Part shown: positions 15,883 through 60,828 of the stretch, piece after piece
How the letters are laid out: each line of letters begins with the position of its first letter
Numbering within the stretch: position 1 is the stretch's first letter
NCBI GenBank assembly: GCA_003220225.1
Contig: QHRU01000037.1
Location: 1-64,000 of the forward strand
Length of the DNA: 64,000 nucleotides
Direction of reading: 5' to 3'
DNA from: Candidatus Rokuibacteriota bacterium
GTDB taxonomy: Bacteria > Methylomirabilota > Methylomirabilia > Rokubacteriales > CSP1-6
Notes under the pieces: model-generated
What the model was told of the DNA's origin: nothing
Databases searched by the model: none
Seen by the model: only the letters and a program-made list of their open reading frames with translations
Translations under genes and position numbers: made by a program

Positions 15883-17001
15883 TCAGGAGATCGTGGGCAG
15901 CGGGCGGAGCGTCGCCGTCGCGTCGAGCCTCTCGACCACCCGCCTGGCCACGTCGCGGAAGGCCCCGGCCTGGGCCGACTGGGGGCGGCGCACGATGATG
16001 GGCGCGCCCTCGTCGCCGCCCTTGCGGGTGTCGGGGTCGAGGGGGAGCTGGCCGAGCAGCGGCACGCCGTACTCGTCGGCCACCTTCTTGCCGCCGCCCT
16101 CGCCGAAGATCGCGTACCGCGTGCCGGTGTCGGGCGCGACGAAGTACGACATGTTCTCGACGACGCCGAGCATCGGCACGTTGAGCCGCTGGAACATCGC
16201 GATCGCCTTGCGCACGTCCAGCAGCGCCACGTCTTGAGGGGTCGTCACCATCACCACGCCGGAGAGCGGGATGACCTGCGAGAGCGACAGCTGCGCGTCG
16301 CCGGTGCCGGGCGGCATGTCGAACACGAGGTAGTCGAGCGGTCCCCACATGACGTCGCGCAGCATCTGCTGGATGAACGAGTGGATCATCGGCCCCCGCC
16401 ACACGAGCGGCTCCTTGTCACCGACGAGCAGGCCGATCGACATCACCTTGAGGCCGTGGGCCTCGACCGGGATGATGCGGTTGTCGAACATCCCGGGCCG
16501 GCCCCTGGTGCCGAGCATGAGCGGCAGGTCGGGCCCGTAGACGTCGGCGTCGATGATTCCGACGTGCGCGCCGGCCTCGGCGAGCGCCAAGGCGAGATTC
16601 ACGGCGACGGTGGACTTGCCGACGCCGCCCTTGCCCGACGACACGGCGATCGTGTGCTTGACCTCGGGAATCATGTCCGCGGGGCGCTGGGGCGCGGCCG
16701 GCGCGGCGGCCTGCGGGTGGCCCTGCGCGCCGTGCTGATGCGGGTGAGCCGCGGCTGCGGCGCCGCCGCCCATCTTCGCGCTGACCTTCGACACGCCGGG
16801 CAGCCGCCCGACGAGCTTGGACGCCATGCTGTGGATCATCACCTTCGTCTGCGGCGGCTGGGCCGCGAACGCGAGCGTGAAGCTGACCGCGCCGCCCTGG
16901 ACGGCGACGTCGCGCACGAGCCCCAGCGCGACGATGTCTTTCTGGCTCTCGGGATCCTTGATACCGCGGAGCGCATTGATGACGTCCTGCTCGCTCGCCA
17001 T
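15883..17001 (-). CDS. mrp: Mrp/NBP35-family Fe-S cluster carrier ATPase
   Basis: 372 aa. Residues 1-80 are a MIP18/DUF59 domain; a His/Ala-rich linker follows; from 115 on is the ATPase with deviant Walker A SSGKGGVGKST, DADVYGPDLP and DMPPGTGDAQL. The usual C-terminal CxxC that holds the bridging Fe-S cluster is replaced by VAPDTGTRY. The protein probably still assembles or carries Fe-S clusters, but through other ligands. First gene of a minus-strand unit with the Lon-N and PDZ genes. Confidence 0.93.
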   Translation of the reverse strand: MASEQDVINALRGIKDPESQKDIVALGLVRDVAVQGGAVSFTLAFAAQPPQTKVMIHSMASKLVGRLPGVSKVSAKMGGGAAAAAHPHQHGAQGHPQAAAPAAPQRPADMIPEVKHTIAVSSGKGGVGKSTVAVNLALALAEAGAHVGIIDADVYGPDLPLMLGTRGRPGMFDNRIIPVEAHGLKVMSIGLLVGDKEPLVWRGPMIHSFIQQMLRDVMWGPLDYLVFDMPPGTGDAQLSLSQVIPLSGVVMVTTPQDVALLDVRKAIAMFQRLNVPMLGVVENMSYFVAPDTGTRYAIFGEGGGKKVADEYGVPLLGQLPLDPDTRKGGDEGAPIIVRRPQSAQAGAFRDVARRVVERLDATATLRPLPTIS

Positions 17002-17212
17002 ACGGACGAATGATATACCCGACGGGTCGGGGCGGGGCGTATGGGAACGCGGTTTCCCAATCTAGGGCGCCTTCGCTCTCCCGCCTCGCCCGGCCGCGCG
17101 CGCAAGCCGTTGAAAAGACGCCGCGCCCGGCGTGGAACGCCGATTGCTGCCAGAGGGGGCGGCCGTCTCGATGAGAGTCGAGCCAAGCAGTATGTTCGAT
17201 GCCCTCCCCCCG

Positions 17213-17253
17213 GCGAGGGCGGGCCTGCCAGGGCCCGCCCTCGCTTGATTTTT
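17213..17253 (+). terminator. Strong intrinsic terminator with no plus-strand gene before it
   Basis: A perfect 13-bp stem GCGAGGGCGGGCC / GGCCCGCCCTCGC with a six-base loop is followed by TTGATTTTT. The 279-base gap from 17002 holds no convincing protein gene but has two smaller hairpins (CGGCG-TGGAA-CGCCG; CTCGA-TGAGAG-TCGAG). It could terminate a small RNA or act as an attenuator for the flavin reductase operon. TTGATT also fits a -35 for that operon. Confidence 0.6.
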
Positions 17254-17280
17254 GCCCACCCTTCCTGATACATAAGTCGA

Positions 17281-17775
17281 GTGGTCCCCCCCGAAGAGTT
17301 TCGTCGTGTTCTCGGTCACTTCGCCACGGGAGTCACGATCGTCACCACGCGTGACGCCGACGGCCGTCCGACCGGGCTCACCGTGAGCGCGTTCTGCTCG
17401 GTCTCGCTCGATCCGCCGCAGATCCTGGTCTGCGTGGATCACAAGTCGCAGAGTTATCCGGCGCTGCGCGACGGCGGACACTTCGCCGTCAACTTCCTCG
17501 GCGACGGGCACGAAGACATCTCGCGCCGCTTCGCGACGACGCGCCTCGACAAGTTCGACGGCGTGGCGCACCGCCTGAGCGGTCACGGCGTGCCGCTGCT
17601 CGACGGCGCGCTGGCGCAGCTCGAGTGCCGCGTGGTCTCCCGGCACGTCGAGGGCGATCACACGATTCTCGTCGGGCTCGTCGAGGACGCTCGCAACGGC
17701 GCGGGCGAACCGCTGCTCTATTACCGCGGCAAGTACCGCCGCCTGGCCGAAACCCCTTCAGGAGCAAAATCGTGA
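17281..17775 (+). CDS. Flavin reductase-like FMN-binding protein
   Basis: 164 aa, the usual length of the flavin reductase domain family (PF01613): FRRVLGHFATGVTIVTTRD at the N-terminus, GLTVSAFCSVSLDPPQILVCVD near residue 37, and ILVGLVEDA. These proteins reduce FMN or FAD with NAD(P)H for a partner monooxygenase, or bind FMN tightly. GTG start with no ribosome binding site; a TACATA box ends six bases upstream, suggesting a leaderless message. Its stop overlaps the next start (GTGA). Confidence 0.9.
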   Translation: MVPPEEFRRVLGHFATGVTIVTTRDADGRPTGLTVSAFCSVSLDPPQILVCVDHKSQSYPALRDGGHFAVNFLGDGHEDISRRFATTRLDKFDGVAHRLSGHGVPLLDGALAQLECRVVSRHVEGDHTILVGLVEDARNGAGEPLLYYRGKYRRLAETPSGAKS

Positions 17776-58102: not shown

Positions 58103-59817
<1,715 letters not shown>

Positions 59818-59821
<4 letters not shown>

Positions 59822-60168
59822 GCGCGGCGCTCCCACTCGGCCAGCTTCCGGAGCGCCGCGTCCTTCGCGGCGCCGGCGGTGAGGCCGTTCAGGCCGTGGA
59901 CCTGGCGCGCGCCGGCCAGCTCGACGAGCGTCACCCGCTTGGCGTCGCCGGGCTCGAAGCGCACCGCGGTGCCCGCGGGGACGTTCAGCCGCATGCCGAA
60001 CGCCTGCGGCCGATCGAACCGCAGCGCGCGATTCACCTCGAAGAAGTGGAAGTGCGAGCCGACCTGGATCGGCCGGTCGCCGGTGTTCTCCACGGTGAGC
60101 TCGAGCGTCCGCCGGCCCGCGTTCGCCTCCACGTCGCCGCTGTCGAGCAGGTACTCGCCTGGAATCAC
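59818..60168 (-). CDS. ureB: Urease beta subunit UreB
   Basis: 116 aa. Family core [27 protein letters not shown] and [16 protein letters not shown]. Structural subunit of the (UreABC)3 enzyme. Separated from ureA by a LysE-family gene, which is unusual. Confidence 0.96.
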
Positions 60169-60201
60169 TGCGGCCTCCTTGGGCTCGGCATCCGTCCCGA
60201 C

Positions 60202-60828
60202 TCAGCTGCGCCGAACGGCGGCGACGCCGACGCCGGCGGTCACCAGCATCGCGCCGGCGACCCCGTCGGCCAGACGCGCGAAGCGAGGGTTCACGGCGAG
60301 CGCGTGGAGCCGGCCGGCGGCCGCGCCGTAGGCGAGCAGCACGACGAGCTCGATCGCCACGCTGGTCACGGCCAGCACGAGCACCTGGACGGCCACGTGG
60401 CCGGTAGGCTCGATGAACTGCGGCAGCAGGGCCACGAAGAACAGCAGCGCCTTGGGATTCGCGGTCTGCAGCACGAACCCGTTCACGAACGTCCGGCGCC
60501 GGCCCGCGGCGCCCGTCGGTCCGGGCGCGAGCGAGCGCGCGGCCCGGCGCCCCGCGAGCGCGCGCACGCCGAGCCAGATCAGATAGGCGGCGCCCAGCCA
60601 GCGGACGAGCGAGAAGAGCTCGTACGACGCGAGCAGCACGGCGCCGAGGCCCGTGGCCGAGAGCGCGAAATAGAGGGCGTTGCCGGCGAGGATGCCGAGC
60701 GTCGCCCACCCCGACGCGGCGGCGCCGCGCGTCAGCGCCTGCGCGACCACGAAGAGGACGGCCGGCCCCGGCGTCAGGCACAGCAGGCTCTCCGTGAGCA
60801 CGAACAGCGCCCACACCTCGAGACTCAC
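60202..60828 (-). CDS. LysE/RhtB-family exporter inside the urease operon
   Basis: 208 aa, six spans. Motifs [19 protein letters not shown] near residue 16 and [15 protein letters not shown] near 120. It lies between ureA and ureB on the same strand with gaps of about 30 bases on each side, so it is likely co-transcribed. It might export an amino acid or amine linked to urea metabolism, or simply be an insertion. Confidence 0.92.

Follow-up and report, generated by a model that had tools for sequence, protein, structure and literature searches.

Positions 17042-17253 of the window, as the whole stretch of 64,000 nucleotides analysed here is called, probably form a gene of their own, encoding a small regulatory RNA of Candidatus Rokubacteria whose expression depends on sigma-54. 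Computed results are the promoter match, the structure and the phylogenetic footprint of this gene; that it is transcribed, what activates it, what it targets and how it acts are matters of inference. In outline, an enhancer-binding protein responding to some signal would bind an upstream inverted repeat (the dyad) and switch on RpoN-RNA polymerase, and sigma-54-driven transcription from about 17159 would yield an RNA that measures about 95 nt and stops at 17253. This RNA would act in trans, its C-rich linker and perhaps its UGCCAG loop pairing with G-rich stretches near ribosome-binding sites, with Hfq-independent repression of translation as the most likely effect, and flavin reductase would have a transcript of its own, started at a separate promoter that directly follows the terminator. 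Candidatus Rokubacteria are a soil and groundwater group mostly known via metagenome-assembled genomes, and, judging by Rfam and the literature searched, this would be the first small regulatory RNA described for them: no family of Rfam 15 (4227 families) reaches its gathering score at 17002-17280, and no small RNA described for Rokubacteria was found in the literature, one of the searches being too broad for a strong negative. The features discussed below are collected in Table 1.

Table 1. Features of the region between mrp and the flavin reductase gene (flr), with the two neighbouring genes; positions are those of the window
Feature	Positions	Strand	Basis or remarks
mrp-type P-loop ATPase (NUBPL/ParA family, Fe-S assembly N-terminal domain), divergent neighbour	15883..17001	-	Pfam PF10609 E 3.7e-101, PF01883 E 2.2e-14
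Inverted repeat TGGGAACGCGGTTTCCCA, putative enhancer (upstream activating) site	17042..17059	.	Conserved block in the 11 relatives
Sigma-54 (RpoN) -24/-12 promoter TGGAACG-CCGA-TTGC = TGGAACGCCGATTGC (GG 17134-17135, GC 17146-17147)	17133..17147	+	Pattern match in relatives
Predicted small RNA, ~95 nt	17159..17253	+	Start predicted 12 nt after the -12 GC; end at T-tract
5' hairpin (GGCCG.CUC...GAG.CG.GCC)	17161..17184	+	Basal GGC/GCC invariant; arms and loop vary between genera
C-rich linker TTCGATGCCCTCCCCCC, putative single-stranded pairing region	17195..17211	+	Sequence conservation
Terminal (terminator) hairpin, 14 bp, invariant loop UGCCAG (17226-17231)	17212..17245	+	Covariation
Promoter-like block of flavin reductase: -35-like TTGATT (17245-17250), 18-nt spacer, -10-like TACATA (17269-17274)	17245..17274	+	Conserved block
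T-tract of terminator (TGATTTTT)	17246..17253	+	Strong in genus g1, weak in ~half of relatives
Flavin reductase-like protein (GTG start at 17281), downstream neighbour	17281..17775	+	Pfam PF01613 E 6.5e-46

The terminal hairpin and its T-tract (17212-17253, plus strand) form the strongest terminator of the whole 64-kb window. It is an orphan because mrp, which precedes it, is a minus-strand gene and the first gene on the plus strand after it begins at 17281, and this bears out an earlier note on this DNA, which had described a plus-strand terminator with no plus-strand gene before it. The terminator scan gives the stem at 17212-17245 as 15 pairs including G-U, 12 of them G-C, with a loop of 4 and the tail TGATTTTTGC. 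Between 15000 and 20000 the scan counts five sites that resemble terminators, where shuffles have 1.0 +/- 1.2; the four besides this one have stems of just 5-6 bp, and a stricter scan of all 64 kb (stem of 9 bp or more, with 6 or more G-C and 4 or more T in 8) returns this terminator and one weak site only. More generally, the window (1-64000) holds only one strong intrinsic terminator; intrinsic termination may seldom be used at operon ends in these bacteria.

The predicted RNA at 17159-17253 folds with a z of -4.05, and none of 200 shuffles is as stable. The earlier note had seen further hairpins in the 200 bases before the terminator, a claim that lacks significance as worded, since the whole of 17002-17260 folds much as its shuffles do (z -1.12). 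The small RNA, one of the two options that it offered, is supported, whereas the start that it placed at about 17020-17050 is rejected, given that this stretch contains the dyad, the whole-region fold is not significant and the predicted start lies at about 17159. Covariation among relatives, which the note had suggested as a check, is present: the terminal stem has two-sided compensatory change in six pairs, the covariation score is attained by none of 500 shuffles, and with both helices taken together 98.4% of the cells are paired, a proportion that drops to 38-53% in a slid-partner control. The 5' hairpin is foldable in every genus, its significance per sequence being modest (z from +0.1 to -3.3) and reached by the hairpin alone in few sequences only. 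The linker is kept as GAYGCCCTYCCCC in genera g1, g17 and g11 and as GCCCTYCCCC in all 11 relatives, and the UGCCAG loop is invariant in 11/11 while the stem beneath it varies, the loop region CUGCCAGGG being invariant as well. Conservation comes in separate blocks (dyad, promoter and RNA) and is poorer in between; a lack of conservation outside the stem, which the earlier note had named as part of what would refute it, is not observed, the linker, the sigma-54 promoter and the upstream inverted repeat all being conserved. About half of the species have a good T-tract and the others a poor one, so that the hairpin is apparently kept for more than termination; at weak T-tracts termination may be partial or helper-dependent. 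A small coded peptide was considered and rejected for the plus-strand frames of 25 and 75 aa that run over the RNA. These frames are not kept, because the C-run varies in length by 1-2 nt and one relative (G002) lacks the ATG with which the 25-aa frame begins, and no reading frame is conserved, the C-run and the 5' arm differing by lengths indivisible by three.

Upstream of the RNA, TGGAAYR-N4-TTGC is present in 11/11 RNA-bearing loci, and the spacing from TTGC to the loop is nearly fixed at 71-84 nt. The usual spacing from the -12 GC to the transcription start is 12 nt, and the RNA is therefore predicted to start at about 17159. The strict sigma-54 pattern TGGMAYRNNNNTTGCW has a single match in the 6.03 Mb genome, which is the one at 17133-17147, and the reversed pattern, used as a control, has five matches in the same 6.03 Mb. 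Among the 38 RNA-less relatives with the same mrp-flr pair, no sigma-54 site was found upstream of flr, and in most of them the two genes stand only about 55-200 bp apart, some few of these distances being unreliable. RpoN is encoded in 54 of the 56 family genomes, and 23 sigma-54 activator domains are encoded in the window's own genome; of the marks of the sigma-54-dependent class, a -24/-12 promoter just upstream of the RNA and encoded RpoN and activator domains are in place. As a separate matter, one match of TGGMAYRNNNNTTGCW in 6 Mb (G000) set against 23 activator domains means that other sigma-54 promoters of this genome must deviate from the strict consensus.

The dyad TGGGAA-N6-TTCCCA, centred about 108 bp before the predicted transcription start, is the second conserved block among the 11 relatives; it is degenerate in genera g6 and g11, and the roughly 70 bp that separate it from the promoter are less conserved. 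In sigma-54 systems the enhancer site typically lies some 80-200 bp upstream, and from its distance of about -108 we infer that the dyad could be the site of an enhancer-binding protein. The exact dyad has its sole genomic copy here, and none of the seven one-mismatch copies genome-wide is followed by a sigma-54 site; consequently, the activator may serve the small RNA gene alone. Alternatively, the dyad could serve mrp instead. In one relative (L077, G012), a long near-perfect inverted repeat, GTTCGAGCAACACTCGCCCGCC...GGCGGGCGAGTGTTGCTCGAAC, adjoins the dyad upstream of mrp; none is seen in the relatives. Beyond the RNA itself, a well-defined sigma-54 promoter with its dyad would give access to one member of the set of 23 enhancer-binding proteins.

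When 99 relatives were searched at the DNA level for homologous intergenic regions, the search placed every region with a strong signal between mrp and flavin reductase. Two covariance models, R1 for linker and hairpin and R2 for promoter and RNA, retrieve the same 11 genomes, which belong to one family and five genera (g1, g17, g6, g14 and g11). The 11 members of R2 have E <= 2e-19, and the next best match among 95 phylum genomes stands at 0.002 per genome, which is weak over 95. A pattern scan of one genome per species (84,980 species) gives nine loci, all titled Candidatus Rokubacteria/Rokuibacteriota. In the genomes searched, the RNA occurs in Candidatus Rokubacteria only, in a single copy per genome and at a constant locus. 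Two matches that might have been second copies were set aside, as both look like ordinary terminators: a low match in G028:C180, which has neither the linker nor a sigma-54 site and stands behind a different gene, and a match in G009. A tree built from the proteins of the neighbouring genes places the 11 RNA-bearing species inside a clade of 33, where they do not form one branch. Because the locus is always the same, the simplest reading is that the RNA was gained once and then lost at least five times; the tree is drawn from adjacent genes only, and local recombination is possible. The RNA is missing in many close relatives and is therefore not essential to the group.

As to how such an RNA might act, its architecture suits pairing in trans through a C-rich, G-seeking linker, a reading for which belief and doubt are about evenly matched. 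The Pfam profile of Hfq, the protein that the genome of an Hfq-dependent small RNA needs to encode, finds nothing in any of the 56 family genomes and is positive in five control genomes, so that the RNA would do without Hfq or rely on some other helper. Searches of 11 genomes for the complement of the linker core, and then for G-rich sequence 3-10 nt before ATG, gave no target that recurs between genera. The candidates rejected on this ground are a 226-aa protein and a stomatin-like protein, which recur within g1 only, and rplS-like and thiG-like genes, which recur within g14 only; a cytochrome-peroxidase-like gene was rejected as well, its one 15-nt match lying inside coding sequence. A variant compatible with the small RNA reading is that the UGCCAG loop and the C-rich linker would engage an RNA-binding protein, as its decoy or its scaffold, much as RsmY or CrcZ do. 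It would fit a loop invariant in 11/11 above a stem that changes, searches that found no mRNA target, and a best, sub-threshold Rfam match to RsmW (RF02809; 17110-17252, 26.4 bits, E 0.014). However, the repeated motif of known sponge RNAs is missing, CsrA-type GGA loops are not seen, and the RsmW match, rejected as an identity, falls far under the gathering score of 52 bits, spans the promoter region and is driven by a generic GC-rich terminator; on balance the variant is unlikely. Elsewhere in the window, the Rfam model 5_ureB_sRNA matches at 59374-59666 on the plus strand (84 bits), antisense to a minus-strand urease gene (58103-60814 frame); most likely this match is conserved urease coding sequence and not a real antisense RNA. 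Also to be entertained, with little expectation that it will prove correct, is a riboregulator that is controlled by sigma-54 and independent of Hfq, whose terminator hairpin would itself be active through its UGCCAG loop, upon a target or a protein, and whose leaky termination would let the same promoter feed flavin reductase. If true, one promoter would supply both a small RNA and a redox enzyme.

Poorer still are the prospects of the attenuated leader of the flavin reductase operon that the earlier note had offered as its alternative to a small RNA. Here the sigma-54 promoter would drive the operon, 17212-17245 would be a conditional terminator, and GCCCU (17201-17205) with AGGGC of the terminator's 5' arm would form the antiterminator. 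The element does always lie directly upstream of flavin reductase, this alternative pairing is preserved in 54 of 55 cells including G-U, and the weak T-tract of about half the species would permit read-through; in genus g11 the pairing GCCCUC/GAGGGC is largely preserved via G-U and is therefore not counted against attenuation. Yet the alternative helix has 5-6 bp as against the 14-15 bp of a GC-rich terminator, the approximately 40 nt before the hairpin contain neither a leader peptide nor a ligand-binding domain, no Rfam riboswitch matches, and the element is wholly absent in 38 relatives. Further, flavin reductase has a promoter-like block of its own behind the terminator, and its counterparts, with a TTGCAT(T)-type -35 and a CTGCTACATAA-type -10, are kept in relatives with the RNA and without it, the 38 RNA-less relatives included, which makes an attenuated leader less likely; we regard it as decidedly improbable, though some read-through into flavin reductase may occur. 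What the sequence suggests instead is a leaderless flavin reductase mRNA, with a predicted start at the GTG and independent of the upstream RNA. Across the mrp-flr gaps of 49 relatives (L064-L114), the TTGCAT / TACATA block ends 6-8 nt before the flavin reductase start codon in most, and leaderless mRNA is suggested to be a habit in the family. An ACTATA-type block faces mrp in the mrp-flr gaps of relatives, and suggests that the mrp mRNA may likewise be leaderless. The least credible explanation is an insulator without functional RNA, whose hairpin would block stray plus-strand transcription (antisense to mrp) before it reaches the flavin reductase promoter: the hairpin does stand just before a promoter and the T-tract is strong in genus g1, but a conserved sigma-54 promoter, the dyad, the linker, the invariant loop and the species that have the hairpin with a poor T-tract would all be left unexplained.

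Read as a sigma-54-dependent small regulatory RNA, the element invites comparison with several known systems. GlmY/GlmZ and CrcZ are sigma-54-dependent regulatory RNAs and resemble it in that respect, but they are longer and have dedicated protein partners (RapZ; Hfq/Crc), and no model of them matches at the Rokubacteria locus. The Qrr RNAs of Vibrio (sigma-54/LuxO) are sigma-54-driven, trans-acting and Hfq-requiring, and they differ in this need for Hfq and in a conserved core of their own, the Rokubacteria RNA having no Rfam match to Qrr. What the two would have in common is the plan of a sigma-54-driven, trans-acting small RNA with a 3' terminator hairpin (PMC10162802 for qrr1). By analogy, the closest functional counterpart would be Pxr of Myxococcus xanthus, a lineage-restricted RNA of about 108 nt with an apparent sigma-54 promoter, from GC-rich myxobacteria in which Hfq is undetected (PMC5568312). 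The likeness extends to a predicted sigma-54 promoter, a GC-rich genome without detected Hfq, a lineage-restricted origin, stem-loops with a C-rich stretch and mostly one copy per genome (PMC5568312). Pxr differs in having three stem-loops and in lying beside the sigma-54 response regulator nla19 (PMC5568312), whereas the RNA described here has two hairpins, with mrp and flavin reductase as its neighbours; the phylum is also another, and the likeness is a functional one, without claim of sequence relationship. As Pxr does in myxobacteria, the Rokubacteria RNA would link sigma-54 signalling with regulation by RNA in a family without detected Hfq, and would thereby add a second, independent example in which to ask how small RNAs of GC-rich genomes manage without that protein.
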